Both the position numbers and the translations under genes were made by a program. A DNA stretch of 64,000 bases from an uncultured Algibacter sp. (lineage in GTDB: Bacteria; Bacteroidota; Bacteroidia; Flavobacteriales; Flavobacteriaceae). The stretch covers positions 186,001 through 250,000 of the forward strand of contig NZ_CANKXG010000007.1 in the NCBI RefSeq assembly GCF_947487575.1, in the 5' to 3' direction. Positions 3,800-63,247 of this stretch are shown here, piece after piece (the stretch's first letter is position 1; each line of letters opens with the position of its first letter). Below the pieces are notes generated by a model. The model did no database searches. It was not told the DNA's origin and worked only from the letters and a program-made list of their open reading frames with translations.

Positions 3800-3952
3800 G
3801 GGCGTTACCACAAGGGTCGGGCTTTCCACTATATCTTTTTTTAATGTTATTGAGAGGGGTAAGCGACGTATTAATATGTAAATACTTCTGTCCTATACTT
3901 AACTTATAGTTGTCTTTTAAAAAAAGGATGCCGCTGCAATCCCTAACGCGGT
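3800..3952 (+). repeat. dispersed GCGTTA-ended element, copy A
   Basis: Begins GGGCGTTACC, contains GGGTCGGGCTTTCC and ACTATATCTTTTT, then after a variable middle AAAAAGGATGCCGCTGCAAT, and ends CCCTAACGCG. Seven further copies occur in the window (9404, 11338, 17808, 27531, 31071, 51143, 60441). It fills about half of the 321 bp gap between the SulP gene and the next gene at 4110; I see nothing else recognisable in that gap. Confidence 0.8.
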
Positions 3953-4109
3953 CTAGTTTGCTAGCTGTCAGATTAAGTTATAGATTGAATTTCGTTTTTG
4001 AAATGGCCGTTTTAACAATGTCGTGTATCATTAGTGGTATTTTTAAACACTAGATTTAGTAAATAAAACCAAATAGAAATCCGTTAGTATATCATAAACT
4101 AGAAATAAA

Positions 4110-4748
4110 TTATATACGGTATTCTGCATTCGTATTTAAATTTCCTGTTATTACATTGTATTCTTTCGGTATTTCTACGCCTTTAAATTCATTAGTCAAC
4201 CCGTATAGTATAATCAAAGTAAAAATTATTCCTGTTATTAGAATTCCATATGATTGTTTAACAGGTTCTATACCAAGTATTTTTCTTTTCATTTTTTTTG
4301 AATGAACAGCAGAAATATGTCCAAAAAATGAAATTATTGCAAGACTGTAATATGGAATGAAAAACAGACTCAATGGAAACGTATTTAATCCTGCAACACC
4401 AAAATAAAAATTAGTATCCAGATTTAAAATCATTCTTCCAGATAATACTGCACTTAAATGAATAAAAAAGAAAACTGCAAGATAAAGCCCCGTCCAAATT
4501 TGTAATTTTTCAAAAAAACCAGAAGCAATTTTTCTCTTTTTTAAAAATAACTTGACACCTGAAAAAATTTGGATTATAACAGCAAAAAGTAATATGCTTT
4601 CTATAATTATATTTCTATAAACAACTCTTAAATCATTCATCATTTCAATATGAGCGTTTACTCCCAATAGACTATATAAATGATTTAACAAATGTACTCC
4701 CACAAAAAGGGAAATTATCACTCCAGAGAAATAATGTATGCGCTTCAT
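4110..4748 (-). CDS. polytopic membrane protein with conserved histidines, cytochrome b-like
   Basis: A 212-residue protein with about five membrane segments (roughly residues 5-25, 48-68, 85-105, 120-145, 165-185). Several segments carry histidines in positions that could hold haem: VGVHLLNH near residue 19, FFIHLSAV near 97 and FGHISAVH near 144. This arrangement is reminiscent of the membrane anchors of the succinate dehydrogenase/fumarate reductase class, but I do not recognise a named family. It starts 51 bp after the stop of a Crp/Fnr regulator on the same strand, so the two probably share a transcript. Confidence 0.6.
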   Translation of the reverse strand: MKRIHYFSGVIISLFVGVHLLNHLYSLLGVNAHIEMMNDLRVVYRNIIIESILLFAVIIQIFSGVKLFLKKRKIASGFFEKLQIWTGLYLAVFFFIHLSAVLSGRMILNLDTNFYFGVAGLNTFPLSLFFIPYYSLAIISFFGHISAVHSKKMKRKILGIEPVKQSYGILITGIIFTLIILYGLTNEFKGVEIPKEYNVITGNLNTNAEYRI

Positions 4749-4799
4749 TTTTTTTTAAGCAAAAGTCAACTTAAAAATTAAGTTGTCATTTGATTTATA

Positions 4800-5402
4800 T
4801 CAAATTCGGTTTTTTAAATTCCGAATTCTACTTAATGTTTCGAGTGTAATTCCAATATATGAAGCTATATGTGTTAATGGCACTCTTTGTGTAATATCTG
4901 GCCTAATGGATAAAATATTATCATACTTCTGTTCTGCCGTATGAAATTGCATAGACGAAATTCTTTCTTGTTGTTGTAGCATTGTTTTTGTTATTACTAT
5001 TTTACTTAAACGTTCAAAATCACGATACTCATCAGATAGTTTTTCTATATCTTTTCTTGATATCTCCAATAGTACGGTGTCTTCTAGTAATTCTATAAAA
5101 TGTGGACTTGGAATATTGAGAAAAAAGCTATTTATAGAACTAATAAAATCATTATCAAAAGCAAACCAATCAGAAATATCTTTCCCGTCTTTTAAATAGA
5201 ACGCTCTTGCACAACCAGAAAATATAAAAAATGTTTTATCAGAGTATTGCCCTTCTCTAACAAGTGTTTCGCCTTTTGATAATGTTAAAACTTTAGAGGT
5301 ATTTGATAATTTCTGTTGACATTCAAAAGTCAATTTAGAATATGTCTCGCTAATTCGATTTATTATTTCTTCTTTACTTACTACCATTTCGTAATGACGC
5401 AT
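4800..5402 (-). CDS. Crp/Fnr-family transcriptional regulator
   Basis: A 200-residue protein with a cyclic-nucleotide-binding-like beta-roll (about residues 35-125; VREGQYSDKTFFIFSG is the typical turn) and a short C-terminal helix-turn-helix (PLTHIASYIGITLETLSRI). There is no cysteine cluster of the Fnr type, so oxygen sensing through 4Fe-4S is not indicated. The second half is typical of the many short Crp-like regulators in Bacteroidota. The ligand is unknown. An alternative start a few codons inside (MVVSKEE) is possible. The next gene downstream on the same strand is a membrane protein that may be its target. Confidence 0.85.
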   Translation of the reverse strand: MRHYEMVVSKEEIINRISETYSKLTFECQQKLSNTSKVLTLSKGETLVREGQYSDKTFFIFSGCARAFYLKDGKDISDWFAFDNDFISSINSFFLNIPSPHFIELLEDTVLLEISRKDIEKLSDEYRDFERLSKIVITKTMLQQQERISSMQFHTAEQKYDNILSIRPDITQRVPLTHIASYIGITLETLSRIRNLKNRI

Positions 5403-5528
5403 AATATATAGGTTAGTTCCATTTTGATGAAACTTATTGTTTGTTAAACGAATTTAGCTGAAATGTTTTGCAAAATCAAATAATAGCTAAGCTATACTTA
5501 CTAGTCTAAATGGAAGCTTTTACACATA

Positions 5529-10220: not shown

Positions 10221-11255
10221 ATGGATAGCCACACACCGCAATTACCAGACGAAAACGACCTGTACGAACACCACGCATTTACCGTAGATAAAGGGCAGGC
10301 GCCGTTGCGTATAGACAAATATTTAATGAATTTTGTTGAAAACGCTACCCGAAACAAAATACAAGCCGCCGCAAAAGAGGGCAGTATTTTTGTTAATGAT
10401 GTGGCTGTAAAATCCAACTACAAAGTAAAACCCTTTGATAAAATTAGAGTGTTGTTTTCACATCCGCCATTTGAAAATTTATTGGTAGGCGAGGATATCC
10501 CGATTGATGTGATTTATGAGGACTACGACCTTTTGGTGGTTAATAAAGAAGCCGGTATTGTGGTGCATCCGGGGCACGGAAATTACTCTGGCACACTCAT
10601 AAACGCCCTAATTTACAGGTTCGATAATTTACCAAATAACTCTAGCGAACGCCCAGGATTGGTGCACCGTATAGATAAAGATACTAGCGGACTTTTGGTG
10701 GTTGCCAAAACCGAAGAAGCCATGGCACATCTATCGGCACAATTTGCTAATAAAACTTCCGAACGCGAATATATTGCCCTAGTTTGGGGAAATATAGAGG
10801 AAGAAAACAGCACCATAGAAGGCAACATTGGCAGACACCCAAAAAACCGACTACAAAACACCGTTTTTCTTGATGATGAAGCCGAAAAAGGAAAACCCGC
10901 CGTTACCCATTACACCGTTTTAGAGCGTTTGGGTTACGTTACTTTGGTGTCTTGCAAGCTCGAAACGGGGCGCACACACCAAATTCGCGTGCACATGAAA
11001 CACATTGGGCATACCCTGTTTAACGACGCCCGTTACGGTGGCGAAAAAATACTAAAAGGCACCACATTTACCAAGTACAAGCAGTTTGTAGAAAACTGTT
11101 TTAAAGTATTGCCTAGGCAGGCTTTACATGCCAAAACACTGGGTTTTGAGCATCCTAGAACAGGCAAGTTTATGCAGTTTGATACCGAAATTCCAGACGA
11201 TATGCAGCAATGTATTGAGAAATGGCGTGGTTACGCTAAGCATCAAGAGATGTAA
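10221..11255 (+). CDS. rluD: 23S rRNA pseudouridine synthase RluD-like
   Basis: 344 residues. An S4 RNA-binding domain (about residues 28-80, LRIDKYLMNFV) is followed by the RluA-type catalytic domain with the active Asp in HRIDKDTSGLLVVAK near residue 153 and the GRTHQIRVHM motif near 245. The family converts uridines of 23S rRNA helix 69 (RluD) or other sites (RluC, RluA); flavobacterial proteins in this context are usually called RluD. It follows the PASTA gene with a 3 bp gap. Confidence 0.9.
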   Translation: MDSHTPQLPDENDLYEHHAFTVDKGQAPLRIDKYLMNFVENATRNKIQAAAKEGSIFVNDVAVKSNYKVKPFDKIRVLFSHPPFENLLVGEDIPIDVIYEDYDLLVVNKEAGIVVHPGHGNYSGTLINALIYRFDNLPNNSSERPGLVHRIDKDTSGLLVVAKTEEAMAHLSAQFANKTSEREYIALVWGNIEEENSTIEGNIGRHPKNRLQNTVFLDDEAEKGKPAVTHYTVLERLGYVTLVSCKLETGRTHQIRVHMKHIGHTLFNDARYGGEKILKGTTFTKYKQFVENCFKVLPRQALHAKTLGFEHPRTGKFMQFDTEIPDDMQQCIEKWRGYAKHQEM

Positions 11256-11337: not shown

Positions 11338-11495
11338 GGGCGTTACCCCGAAAAGGGGTCAGGCTTTCTGCTATATCTTTCTGCGAAGCAGTCCCGAACT
11401 TGTTTCGGGATCTCATTGGTTAATCAGCACCGTTTTTCAAATAAAATTTTAGTCTTTAAGCTCCGCACAAAGGATGCCGCTTCAATCCTTAACGC
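11338..11495 (+). repeat. dispersed GCGTTA-ended element, copy C with nested small repeat
   Basis: Starts GGGCGTTACCCCGAAAAGGG, has GTCAGGCTTTC and GCTATATCTTT, then contains a nested REP-like unit (GTCCCGAACTTGTTTCGGG, 11390-11410) and ends AAAGGATGCCGCTTCAATCC-TTAACGC. A further REP-like stretch lies just before it (about 11268-11308). Together with the attC-like element at 11553 it fills the 440 bp between rluD and the gene at 11696. Confidence 0.8.
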
Positions 11496-11552
11496 AATTA
11501 TCAATTAGCTGATGTTTTTAATTGAAAAATTGTTTTATTTTTTGTGATGTTC

Positions 11553-11685
11553 GTTTAACGTTTATGTATAAGAATAGTTGCGGGTTTGTATGCGAGGATT
11601 TTCCGAAGGAAAATCAGATGCAGGCAAACACGCAATTGCCTTTGATTAAGCACTAAACCGCAATTATTTTTATACGGTGTTGTAG
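11553..11685. other. attC-like folded element, left side of cassette 1
   Basis: Bounded by GTTTAAC (11553) and GTTGTAG (11679). Inside, GTATAAGAATAGTTGCGG near 11566 pairs with CCGCAATTATTTTTATAC near 11658, so the 133 bp can fold into one long imperfect hairpin, as integron attC sites do. The first 36 bp (11546-11581) match 60744-60779 at about 28 of 36 positions. R'' fits the attC consensus RYYYAAC; R' fits GTTRRRY only partly. Confidence 0.5.
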
Positions 11686-11695
11686 CACGTTTTTT

Positions 11696-12046: not shown

Positions 12047-12113
12047 CTCTCTATTTTTATATTTTTCGTTTACTTAAACTTTTATTTGTGAGTTTTATTG
12101 TTTCTCAAATGTG

Positions 12114-12168
12114 CTACAACGGTTTTACGGATATGCGTCGTTTTAATGACTTATATCCGACGTTAAAC
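12114..12168. other. attC-like folded element, right side of cassette 1
   Basis: Runs from CTACAAC (12114) to GTTAAAC (12162), about 55 bp, with inner arms CGGATAT and ATATCCG. Read on the minus strand it begins GTTTAAC and ends GTTGTAGCAC, the same two ends as the element at 11553, so the two sites face each other around the gene. It is similar in length to the site at 63136-63192. Confidence 0.45.
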
Positions 12169-12193
12169 GAAGGTAGTTGAAAATTTTTACAAA
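12162..12193. repeat. shared right-boundary sequence of cassette 1
   Basis: GTTAAACGAAGGTAGTTGAA followed by AATTTTTACAAA matches 63186-63217 at 29 of 32 positions, including a 20-base identical stretch. In both places it lies just beyond the upstream end of a minus-strand gene and the attC-like element. The rest of the 12194-12300 gap holds only the yaaA promoter region. Confidence 0.7.
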
Positions 12194-12270
12194 GTCAAGT
12201 ACATCAATTCCATTTATAACCCCATCATAAATAATTCTAATCTTAAATTCTTAAAGTAAATTAGTAATCG

Positions 12271-60440: not shown

Positions 60441-60595
60441 GGGCGTTACCTAGAAGGGGCGGGATTTCCACTATATCTTTTGTTTTTTTTGTCATTCCTG
60501 CGAAGGCAGGAATCTATTAACCAAATTATAGTTTCACACTAAGTTTATTTCTATTTTATATAAAGCAAAACGATGCTGTTTCAATCCCTGCACGA
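60441..60595 (+). repeat. dispersed GCGTTA-ended element, copy H with nested small repeat
   Basis: GGGCGTTACCTAGAAGGGG, GGGATTTCCACTATATC, then a nested GTCATTCCTGCGAAGGCAGG unit (60491-60515), and TCAATCCCTGCACGA at a decayed right end. It lies in the 572 bp between the acyl-CoA dehydrogenase and the oxidoreductase. Bases 60600-60740 show nothing recognisable. Confidence 0.75.
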
Positions 60596-60750
60596 ATCTT
60601 TGCTGTTGTTAAAAGACAAACACCATATGTTGACACTATGAAGCTTGCCTCATAAAAAAAATAAGATTTTATTTGTTTAAATCATAGAATATGCAGATTG
60701 TTGCTAACATCTGTTTTTAAGCCGAAAGTTTTTTGTTTTTGGAGAGGTTT

Positions 60751-60887
60751 GTTTAACAGTTTTGTATACAAATCGTTGCTGTAATTCGTCCGAAGGACAA
60801 TCTAATTGAACCTAAATAAATATGGCATTTTAAGCGTAATCTCCGTTTAGGAAATCCGCAAGCAATGATTTTTAGAGATTGTTAGGT
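60751..60887. other. attC-like folded element, left side of cassette 2
   Basis: Bounded by GTTTAAC (60751) and GTTAGGT (60881), both exact fits to the attC core consensus RYYYAAC / GTTRRRY. Its first part matches cassette 1 at 11546-11581, and both contain TCCGAAGGA shortly after. Size (137 bp) is close to that of the 11553-11685 element (133 bp). Internal pairing is weaker than in cassette 1. Confidence 0.45.
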
Positions 60888-60908
60888 ATATGTTTACCTA
60901 TTTTAAAC

Positions 60909-63089
60909 TTATGTCTTTACTACCTGAACGCGACAATCTTGAAATGCGGCCCCTCCACCCCAGAGCATGATGTCTGTCAATCGATCATCAGTTAGGTTGT
61001 TGGATGCCTGGCCACCTTTGACCAATGAAGGCCAGTAACCATGTGGCATACATACTACTCCTGGCCGAATTCGCTTTGTAATTTTCGCTTCGAGGATTAC
61101 TTTGCCACGTTGGTTGAATGCCATCAATTCATCCCCATTTTGGATATTACGTGCATTTGCGTCTTCCGGATGTATGTCAAGCCATAGACGGCCTTCTTTT
61201 TGCCTGAGGTGTTTGACATTGGCATGCGAGGAGTTATGAAACCCTTTTGTGTTTTTAATTGTCAAAAGCTGCAATGGAAAATCGGATTTTTCCAACTCAG
61301 AATAGGCTACATCCTTGTACGCCGGGAGGCGGCTGCTTGGACTAATAAATTCGCATTTGCCGCTGGCTGTACCGAAGTTGCCTTCCTTATGAGGTAAAAA
61401 AGGTTCAGGAATTTTGTACCTCGCCCAGCCGTTTTCTTGCATGTAGTCAAAATCAATTCCCTCCAAATAGGGATGATTTGAATCAAAAGCTGATTTTACA
61501 ATATCCTTGTCAGATTCTTTGAAACATTCCTCCGTATACCCCATTTTCTTTGCCAATAGTCGGAAAAATTCGCTGTTCGGTTTGGCTTCACCTAGTGGGG
61601 CAATAGCTGGTTGATTGATGTTGATATACAATTGACCCCAAGAATCCCCAATGTCCCAATGTTCAAGCTGTGTTGTCGCCGGGAATACGTAATCCGCATA
61701 TTTTGCAGTCTCGGTCATGAAATGCTCCAATACCACGGTCAGTAGGTCTTCGCGCTCGAGCCCTTTTTTGGTCAGGTTTGCATTGGGTGCCGTGACCATT
61801 GGATTCGAATTATAAATAAAAATCGATTTGATAGCCGGATTTAGGTCGGGGTTATTGAGTAGCTGTCCAATCTGAACCATGCTAAGCGCACGCTTCGGTT
61901 TTGTTGGCATTCGATCGTGATAGCCTAGTCGCTCCCAGTTGAGTGCACGACCGCTCATCTCAAAAGTCATATGCATCAAGCCACCACCTAGTTTGCGCCA
62001 TGCTCCGGTTAATGATGGTAATATAGCCACCGCTCTAGTGCCGTCTCCACCGTTGTAATTGTGCTCAATCCCAACCAGAATACGAATCAGCGAGGGGTTA
62101 CCGTTGGCATACTCCTTGGCCAATTGGATAATGTCCTCTTCCGGTAAACCGCAGATATTTGAAACGCTTTTGGGGTCATAGGACTTGACGTGTTCCTTTA
62201 AATCTTTATAACCTGAGGTGTAATTGTCAATATAATCTTGATCTACCAAACCTTCAGTAATAATAACATTCATCATTCCCAAAGCCAGTGCTACATCGGT
62301 ACCAGGCAGTGGTTGAATATGCCAATCGGCTTCTTTGGCCGTAGCAGAAACAAAAGGATCTACAACGATGATTTTTGCCCCAGCTTTCCTTGCTTTTAAA
62401 ACGTAAGGCCATTGGTGAACATTAGATTTTTTAGTGTTGGTGCCCCAAAGGATGATGTATCGACTGTGAACCATATCTTCTGGCAGCACACCCATTGCTG
62501 TGCCATTCACTTCAAAGTTTGCCGGTATTACAGCACCTCCACAAATCGTATGCGCAATAACGGAAGCTTCCATTCGGGCAAAAAACCGGCTACTCATCAC
62601 GGACTTTTGTATCAGGCTTTGGGTTCCCATGTATCCGTGAGACAGGACTGATTCACTGCCATGCCGAGCAATTGTTTCCTTGAGCTGATCTCCCACTTCA
62701 AGGATGGCCTGTTCCCAGCTAATGGCTTCAAATTTTCCTTCTCCTTTTTTTCCAATTCGCTTCATTGGTGTGAGCAATCTATCGGGGTGATATGTAATGT
62801 CCTCAGGGAAAGTTTCCATCTTTCCACATAGTTTGCCTGCTGTAAAAGGGTTCGCTTTGTCACCACCAAAAGAAACGACTCTACCATCTTGTACTTCAAC
62901 CTTCCAACTACATGAATCAGGACAGTCATGGTAACATACACCATGAAAAGTTGAAGTTTTTGTAGGTCTATGACTAGTAGAGCCAAGTATCGAACTAGGA
63001 AGAATTGTAGCTAAATGAAGACTAGCGTAACTTTTGGCTCCTAAATTGACAAATTTTCTGCGTGTGATCTTGTTTTCTTTCTTGTCCAT
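60909..63089 (-). CDS. molybdopterin oxidoreductase of the DMSO reductase family, Tat-exported
   Basis: 726 residues. A twin-arginine signal (TRRKFVNLGAKSY...LP) precedes the 4Fe-4S motif CYHDCPDSCSWKV...GKLCG near residue 52-88. Molybdopterin guanine dinucleotide binding regions follow (ILWGTNTKKSNVHQW, IIVVDPF, QPLPGTDVALALGMMN) and a C-terminal domain (RLWLDIHPEDANARNIQNGD). A Cys in HTICGGAV near residue 183 may be the Mo ligand. It resembles the YoaE-like group; substrate unknown. No electron-transfer or anchor subunit or maturation chaperone is adjacent. Its coding sequence is visibly richer in G and C than all neighbours except for the first ~50 codons. Confidence 0.88.
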   Translation of the reverse strand: MDKKENKITRRKFVNLGAKSYASLHLATILPSSILGSTSHRPTKTSTFHGVCYHDCPDSCSWKVEVQDGRVVSFGGDKANPFTAGKLCGKMETFPEDITYHPDRLLTPMKRIGKKGEGKFEAISWEQAILEVGDQLKETIARHGSESVLSHGYMGTQSLIQKSVMSSRFFARMEASVIAHTICGGAVIPANFEVNGTAMGVLPEDMVHSRYIILWGTNTKKSNVHQWPYVLKARKAGAKIIVVDPFVSATAKEADWHIQPLPGTDVALALGMMNVIITEGLVDQDYIDNYTSGYKDLKEHVKSYDPKSVSNICGLPEEDIIQLAKEYANGNPSLIRILVGIEHNYNGGDGTRAVAILPSLTGAWRKLGGGLMHMTFEMSGRALNWERLGYHDRMPTKPKRALSMVQIGQLLNNPDLNPAIKSIFIYNSNPMVTAPNANLTKKGLEREDLLTVVLEHFMTETAKYADYVFPATTQLEHWDIGDSWGQLYININQPAIAPLGEAKPNSEFFRLLAKKMGYTEECFKESDKDIVKSAFDSNHPYLEGIDFDYMQENGWARYKIPEPFLPHKEGNFGTASGKCEFISPSSRLPAYKDVAYSELEKSDFPLQLLTIKNTKGFHNSSHANVKHLRQKEGRLWLDIHPEDANARNIQNGDELMAFNQRGKVILEAKITKRIRPGVVCMPHGYWPSLVKGGQASNNLTDDRLTDIMLWGGGAAFQDCRVQVVKT

Positions 63090-63135
63090 AAATGATAAAT
63101 TTTGATTAATTTGTGCAAGGATTTGGATTAATTGC

Positions 63136-63192
63136 CCATAACATAAGACATATATGAAATTTTTGTTAATGTTTTACATTAGAATGTTATAC
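63136..63192. other. attC-like element, right side of cassette 2
   Basis: From CCATAAC (63136-63142) to GTTATAC (63186-63192), 57 bp, comparable to 12114-12168 (55 bp). Inner arms ACATTAGAATGT (63176-63187) can pair. The match to attC consensus is imperfect; the support comes mainly from its equivalent position to cassette 1. Confidence 0.35.
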
Positions 63193-63217
63193 GAATATAG
63201 TTGAAAATTTTTACAAA
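63186..63217. repeat. shared right-boundary sequence of cassette 2
   Basis: GTTATACGAATATAGTTGAA followed by AATTTTTACAAA matches 12162-12193 at 29 of 32 positions. Confidence 0.7.
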
Positions 63218-63247
63218 TTAAAATGTAAAAAACACCAAACCAAACAA

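Follow-up and report, generated by a model that had tools for sequence, protein, structure and literature searches.

The window considered here is a stretch of 64,000 nucleotides (nt) from an uncultured Algibacter sp. (contig NZ_CANKXG010000007.1, positions 186,001 to 250,000), and module 2 is a segment near its right end that contains a gene for a 726-residue molybdopterin oxidoreductase. Module 2 is very probably an old gene cassette of the integron type, residing in a dispersed docking platform upstream of a Flavo-1 RNA motif, and the enzyme behind it would be the tyrosine recombinase that heads a cassette array on another contig (C6) of the same genome. As far as a comparison of sequences can demonstrate it, the platform and the cassette recombination site (attC) are multi-copy families in this genome with constant order and orientation, and empty as well as differently filled platforms exist, also at the module 2 locus in congeners.

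The original prediction held that module 2 shares both boundaries with another segment of the window, module 1, and that the two form one mobile family with interchangeable cargo, mobilised in trans. The counts behind this claim are reproduced exactly: 28 of 36 bases are common to the left ends and 29 of 32 to the right ends. Elsewhere in the window the best ungapped match of the left end reaches 22/36; for the right end it is 26/32, at 5443, and this is the right end of a third module (module 0). When gaps are allowed (blastn within the window), the left ends agree at 75% over 69 nt (E = 1.2e-8) and the right ends at 79% over 57 nt (E = 5.4e-8). The similarity exceeds that of other segments of the window, and the modules are also found by two independent models described below. 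The cargoes are indeed unrelated, being the oxidoreductase in module 2 and, in module 1, an open reading frame (ORF) of 116 aa without a Pfam match at E 0.001. The single mobile family and the mobilisation in trans are both upheld; the oxidoreductase is the sole long ORF within module 2 (the short antisense ORFs there were not searched).

Other parts of the prediction require revision. The ends had been read as transposon-like repeats, and this is not borne out. The main genes of modules 1 and 2 both lie on the minus strand, an orientation of which no use had been made, and on that strand the right end is a promoter-like stretch followed by a hairpin docking site, while the left end is an attC-type site followed by the distal half of the docking site. 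A family of two modules was also incomplete, as the third copy (4008-5483), the Flavo-1 motifs, and the integrase and array outside the window had all been missed. The G+C richness of the oxidoreductase is confirmed (GC 0.443; third-position GC, GC3, 0.412), the averages of the 47 ORFs of at least 150 aa being 0.327 (sd 0.042) for GC and 0.239 (sd 0.060) for GC3. It is not unique, for ORF 10221-11252 has a GC3 of 0.43. This ORF, which adjoins module 1 and equals the oxidoreductase in third-position GC, is presumably pseudouridine-synthase-like.

The two models were derived from sequences outside the window. R2 is a covariance model from 19 attC sites of the C6 array, and R1 was built from 14 copies of the promoter and hairpin. 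In the window each of them finds one site in each of the three modules (Table 1). Apart from these, R2 matches the platform hairpin of module 1 (12112-12170, E = 2e-6) and nothing further at E ≤ 1, and R1 gives two chance-level matches only (E = 0.22 and 0.48).

The anatomy is clearest in module 1. Its order on the minus strand is a promoter-like ACTTGACTTTGTAAAAATTTTCAACTACCTTCG, the hairpin GTTTAACGTCGGATATAAG...CATATCCGTAAAACCG, the cassette start TTGTAGCA, the 116-aa ORF, GCTACAAC, a hairpin site of 137 nt, and G|TTAAACGAA. At the cassette start, TTGTAGC is complementary to GCTACAA, with which the hairpin site of the same cassette opens, and TTCGTTTAAC of the platform is likewise complementary to the distal GTTAAACGAA. 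An integron cassette that has entered a recombination site has this geometry. The attC of module 1 folds better on the bottom strand (z = -5.1) than on the top strand (z = -3.05). In module 0 the same order of platform, attC and Flavo-1 is found, also on the minus strand.

When the left end of module 1 was searched against the genome as DNA, at least 42 matches at E ≤ 1 were obtained from the 40 candidates scored out of 59; 19 of them lie on contig C6 between 252,707 and 286,650, and the remainder are dispersed. Those on C6 lie behind a tyrosine recombinase gene (L003) that had earlier been found by an integron-integrase profile. In the 38.7 kb array stretch R2 finds 36 attC matches, one of them cut at the join of two sequence stretches, and all are on the integrase strand. 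Perfect pairing between the R'' hexamer of an attC and the 5' end of its own cassette is seen in 68 of the 82 cases scored in six genomes, as against four of 82 for R'' and the R' hexamer of the same attC; four more neighbour pairs, all at one locus (L075), were unscorable. The test is not circular, because R2 spans the two hexamers without pairing them, and on the sequence evidence this pairing is to be regarded as the signature of integron cassettes. Compensatory changes on both sides are found in 17 of the 26 pairs of the attC stem. The longest ORF is in sense in all 12 array intervals examined, in one of them with only 28 codons. The first cassette begins 32-116 nt past the integrase stop codon at four loci, and in this genome it follows ATATAACTAG. 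The attC of platform cargoes resemble those of the array over long distances, at up to 96% over 139 nt.

Platforms are numerous outside the array. With the best 70 of 5,196 candidates scored, R1 finds at least 32 in this genome at E ≤ 1e-4, and within the 38.7 kb of the array it has no match. R1 platforms are present in 9 of the 10 genomes of the genus (this one included), in three other genomes of the family, and in none of 23 outside the family. Among 31 platforms that were read, three of them in the window, three are empty, 25 are followed on the same strand by an attC match, and three fall in neither group (L126, L225, L232). For 18 platforms of this genome the attC end was read; in 16 of them it continues directly as GTTAAACGAA, with one mismatch at most. 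In platforms whose longest ORF exceeds 100 aa, this ORF is in sense in 18 of 20; the exceptions are L230, where it lies beyond the attC, and L232, which has no attC match. For 20 pairs of platform and attC (18 from this genome and two from congeners), R'' agrees with the cassette start at 6/6 positions in 13 and at five or more in 17, two are unscorable, and no perfect match arose in 500 shuffles of the partners. In the promoter part, TTG and TA..TT.G are invariant in the 14 aligned copies, the latter being close to the flavobacterial sigma-A -7 box, which is TAnnTTTG according to PMC9723704. About 30 nt upstream of R'' are also conserved among platforms, and TTCGTTTAACG occurs in 40 exact copies in the genome, compared with seven for the reversed pattern. 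One empty platform (L122, C1:416132-416229) is a perfect hairpin with a 23-bp stem in 57 nt and is without the asymmetric spacer of the others.

A cassette of 121 nt without a gene is found both in the array, in three copies (C6:266206, 277111 and 278821), and in five platforms (L129, L134, L224, L229 and L234), with 97.6-100% identity over 123-132 nt. The near junction is G|TTGG in every copy. At the far junction, G|TT is read in all array copies and in three of the platforms, and G|TA and G|GT in L229 and L234, in agreement with the changed R' box of those two platforms. Cassettes have thus moved recently between array and platforms within this lineage, a near-identical cassette being present in both. 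An extra copy (C2:102508, L235) stands behind another attC, so that this site holds at least two cassettes in a row; it ends G|TTAAACGAGCC, and no platform match is found within the 701 bp examined.

At the module 2 locus, between the acyl-CoA dehydrogenase gene and rpsU, nine congeners were compared, and they carry nothing, an empty platform or other cassettes. A platform with an ORF of 301 aa occurs in G007 (R1 E = 1e-15, R2 E = 9e-28) and one with an ORF of 121 aa in G008 (R1 E = 4e-11, R2 E = 3e-18), while the platform of G001 is empty and decayed (R1 E = 3e-8, no R2 match). G004 has an attC (R2 E = 1e-19) followed by the contig end, and G006 an ORF of 159 aa with neither an R1 nor an R2 match. 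In G002 and G005 Flavo-1 is matched but neither a platform nor an attC, in G009 nothing is matched, and in G003 rpsU was not found within the stretch examined. The original prediction had allowed that the oxidoreductase might be ancestral at this site; it was seen there in none of the nine congeners (with G004 cut by the contig end). A homologue at E ≤ 1e-120 is present in only 3 of 199 sampled genomes of the family, including this one. In one of the others (G097) it starts just past a decayed attC (E = 2e-7), behind another small gene.

Table 1. Features of the three modules in the window. Scores and E values are from R1 (platforms), R2 (attC), Pfam (proteins) and Rfam (RNA).
Feature	Position	Strand	Remarks
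Module 2, docking platform	63126..63226	-	promoter-like stretch TTTGTAAAAATTTTCAACTATATTCG, then degenerate hairpin site; E 2.5e-6, 44.6 bits
Module 2, cargo, 726-aa molybdopterin oxidoreductase	60909..63089	-	intact ORF; PF00384 8e-43, PF01568 2e-23, PF04879 9e-7
Module 2, attC-type site (decayed) and distal R' half of platform GTTAAACAAACCTCTCC	60749..60889	-	E 1e-7, 35.2 bits
Module 2, Flavo-1 RNA motif just beyond	60453..60596	-	RF01705 30.8 bits, E 0.015, below gathering 42
Module 1, docking platform (promoter-like stretch and hairpin)	12104..12202	-	E 2.9e-16, 97.5 bits
Module 1, cargo ORF, 116 aa	11699..12046	-	no Pfam match at E 0.001
Module 1, attC, well preserved	11551..11687	-	E 7.1e-32; R'' pairs 6/6 with cassette 5' end TTGTAGCA
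Module 1, Flavo-1 RNA motif beyond	11353..11500	-	RF01705 39.2 bits, E 7.6e-5, just below gathering 42
Module 0, docking platform	5377..5483	-	E 9.5e-6, 41.5 bits
Module 0, cargo, 200-aa protein with cyclic-nucleotide-binding domain (Crp-type regulator)	4803..5402	-	PF00027 7.8e-10
Module 0, second ORF, 212 aa	4113..4748	-	no Pfam match; 3' end overlaps attC match
Module 0, attC-type site	4008..4129	-	E 2.8e-7; R'' unscorable
Module 0, Flavo-1 RNA motif beyond	3811..3958	-	RF01705 48.6 bits, above gathering 42

The oxidoreductase lies in module 2 in the orientation of a normal cassette cargo, with the attC downstream of the gene. Its N-terminus has RRKF, which we take to be twin-arginine-like, and it stays under the curated cut-off of each of the best 25 of 26 matched NCBIfam models. 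Flavo-1 follows just past all three modules on the same strand, with two of the three scores below the Rfam gathering score. Seven Flavo-1 matches are found in the window at E ≤ 0.1 (at 3811, 9399, 11353, 17862, 31066, 51158 and 60453), of which two are above gathering, and at least 75 in the whole genome at E ≤ 0.01 (the best 150 of 853 candidates scored). At the module 2 site of the nine congeners, Flavo-1 scores 44-52 bits in four, 36.5 and 26.4 bits in two, and is without a match in three. Some platforms sit on the 5' side of a Flavo-1 motif; the majority of Flavo-1 copies lie away from any known platform, and at several platforms Flavo-1 is not matched. The function of Flavo-1 is described as unclear in PMC9723704.

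The integrase of the C6 array is a tyrosine recombinase of 393 aa with the full catalytic set, R231, K256, H320, R323, H346 and Y355 being invariant columns in 16 family members. The predicted model of the copy from Algibacter onchidii (mean pLDDT 82) has its best fold match in PDB with the integron integrase 2a3v (E = 6e-16). The gene is transcribed toward the cassettes, and the protein has an extra N-terminal part of about 95 residues with a predicted fold of bbabbab. In a Foldseek search with the model of this domain, archaeal XPB makes up six of the top seven PDB matches (best E = 0.19, identity 10-20%), and none has E ≤ 0.001. Pfam HARP matches 2 of 19 members (best E = 0.0013), the HARP structure 4o66 matches poorly (E = 2.2, TM score 0.34; by sequence E = 0.45), and DUF5710 matches 4 of 19 (best E = 0.0043). 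The damage-recognition domain of XPB and HARP are related structure-specific DNA binders. An XPB/HARP reading of the domain is offered as a lead from predicted structure rather than as demonstrated homology.

Integrases of this family adjoin cassette chains in other genera as well (Algibacter onchidii, Seonamhaeicola aphaedonensis, Winogradskyella ursingii and a Rufibacter). Among 20 integrase regions of relatives, six end within about 1 kb of the gene, and 6 of the 14 others have chains of five or more; in the shuffle control chains are mostly 1-3 and once 5. Of 15 named loci where the N-terminal domain is present and the downstream sequence extends for 5 kb or more, six have a chain of four or more. 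Four have a chain of 2-3, which is at shuffle level, though it stands close behind the integrase and its site measures 121-129 nt, and Mesonia, Cyclobacterium and three others have no chain. At the 27 loci whose match misses the N-terminal domain, only L188 has a downstream chain of four or more, and its ORF shows such an N-terminal stretch; L212 (Pseudoalteromonas luteoviolacea) has a chain of five upstream, as canonical integrons do.

Some related loci are recorded here in their own right. In Rufibacter sp. SYSU D00344 (L164), an array of attC of 62-63 nt, half the usual length, follows downstream of an integrase of this family at a distance of about 3.5 kb. A second integrase clade (L061, L065, L069 and L080, in G003, G001, G015 and G007) has downstream chains not above shuffle level. 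Tyrosine recombinases with a similar N-terminal stretch occur in metagenome-assembled genomes labelled as archaeal (L169) and as Spirochaetota (L168), thus outside Bacteroidota, on contigs that end at or soon after the gene.

Several observations weigh against module 2 as a cassette of this integrase. In its platform the TTGAC of other copies is degenerate, the DNA fold of its attC is not superior to that of shuffled sequences (z = -0.2 for either strand), and its R'' agrees with the 5' end of its own cassette at only 3/6 positions. The oxidoreductase homologue of G185 has no attC or platform match beside it. As to the enzyme, the region of the insertion specific to integron integrases (IntI) is absent in alignments to TIGR02249 and 2a3v, and the score of 212.8 bits is below the integron-integrase cut-off of 265. 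The distance from the Lys motif to HxLRH is 63-65 residues in 35 of 36 members (one unscored), compared with 107 in 2a3v, as counted on the alignment. Members of the integrase family without a downstream array exist. Finally, the gene-less cassette was found in one of 149 genomes, its own (at most five candidates scored per genome), so that it shows movement within one lineage only and is no demonstration of transfer between cells. Module 2 is best seen as a cassette that has settled, with an intact gene and decayed recombination sites; it has probably drifted and would no longer be a good substrate for recombination.

The tyrosine recombinase of the array would act on folded single-stranded attC, recombining next to TT and excising cassettes. 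Two kinds of target would serve for insertion, an attI-like site just past the integrase stop codon and the R' boxes of dispersed platforms; in the second case the platform promoter would then drive the docked cassette. It may also be, more tentatively, that recognition of the folded site, for which the IntI-specific insertion is missing, falls to the N-terminal XPB/HARP-like domain. The system is, by these sequence features, integron-like and the modules would be its cassettes, while the usual definition of an integron fails on one tested feature, the IntI-specific domain. The integron-like character of the system is therefore more certain than the name it should bear.

The inverted repeat TTCGTTTAAC/GTTAAACGAA suggests another explanation, namely that the modules are non-autonomous transposons similar to miniature inverted-repeat transposable elements (MITEs), which have captured genes and are mobilised by a transposase in trans. 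Terminal inverted repeats, the excess of TTCGTTTAACG over its reversed pattern, the 32 platforms and the perfect hairpin of L122 are in keeping with it. The two ends of a module, however, differ in anatomy, one being the promoter side and the other the attC side; the 5' end of the cargo pairs with its own attC, which belongs to the family of the cassette array; cargo orientation is fixed (18/20 in sense); and one cassette occurs in the array without terminal repeats. A MITE-like origin is very improbable, and it was dropped because of the different ends, the fixed orientation and the array-type attC on the cargo. Homologous recombination between repeated platforms or attC sites might instead swap the cargo, with the integrase serving its own array only, and the similarity of platform and array attC (up to 96% over 139 nt) would provide the substrate. 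Against this, the matches of the shared gene-less cassette extend over 123-132 nt for a cassette of 120-121 nt, with little beyond, and its flanks differ, which makes such an exchange quite improbable.

A variant of the integron-type reading would take the platform itself as a promoter-bearing cassette without a gene, inserted at non-classical sites like attG and followed by cassettes acquired later. The platform hairpin carries R''/R' boxes as attC does, and platforms stand empty at several loci; on the other hand, the array stretch contains no platform match, and the 30 or so conserved nt upstream of R'' are probably more than a cassette junction would explain. We consider this variant unlikely. 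It is extremely improbable that the oxidoreductase gene is simply a resident of this site and that the boundaries, as AT-rich repeats, resemble each other by chance. The module 2 platform is admittedly the second weakest of the three, and its attC folds poorly; but models blind to module 2 find its sites at E values of 2.5e-6 and 1e-7, in the right order and on the right strand, the contents of the site differ among congeners without the gene being seen in any, and the gene is rare in the family.

The attC family at E ≤ 1e-4 is found in 35 of 37 genomes of the family, this one included, and in 7 of 23 others of the order (up to 55 candidates scored per genome). In a phylum-wide sample, 67 of 296 genomes have attC at E ≤ 1e-6 (up to 11 scored per genome); in the family itself they number 17 of 30, and all 13 misses are in one genus. 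Canonical integron integrases over the cut-off are present in none of 60 relatives, this genome included, and in 84 of the 296 genomes of the phylum-wide sample, being common in other classes with a single one in the same class, so that no lack of integrons in the phylum is claimed. Some attC-positive genomes of other classes carry canonical integrases too; because of this, attC of this kind may be shared between kinds of integrons.

It is fairly likely that Flavobacteriaceae and other Bacteroidota hold a distinct class of integrons, without the IntI insertion and with an N-terminal domain of XPB/HARP type that handles folded attC, and that one genus has tens of promoter-bearing docking sites which express docked cassettes. 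In PMC9024848 and PMC9668308, the IntI-specific insertion is the stated reason that integrons recombine folded DNA, and a criterion in integron searches. Standard searches would probably not recognise the present recombinase. Outside Chlorobi and Ignavibacteriae, only Salinibacter ruber is named with a complete integron among Bacteroidetes in the IntegronFinder 2.0 paper (PMC9024848), and a cassette array with an insertion-less integrase would explain the near-absence of named complete integrons there despite frequent attC. Such an integrase would be a natural experiment on the role of the insertion. Promoter-bearing docking sites would answer a known weakness of big arrays, in which cassettes far from the promoter are silent, and would help to explain why variable genes are dispersed in these genomes. 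A search of open-licence literature found no account of this system.

With canonical integrons the system shares tandem cassettes, attC hairpins with covariation, complementarity of cassette ends and an array beside a tyrosine recombinase; it differs in the lack of the IntI-specific insertion, in the extra N-terminal part and in an integrase gene transcribed toward the cassettes. An integrase gene oriented as the cassettes is also known in Spirochaetota, where typical IntIs are generally in reverse orientation according to PMC9668308; those are called IntI proper. Clusters of attC sites lacking integrases (CALIN), solitary attC and attG insertions likewise place cassettes outside an integrase-linked array. 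They occupy varied genomic sites, whereas the cassettes described here are docked in a repeated, structured and promoter-like platform; attG is described in PMC12444791 with reference to Loot et al. 2024.

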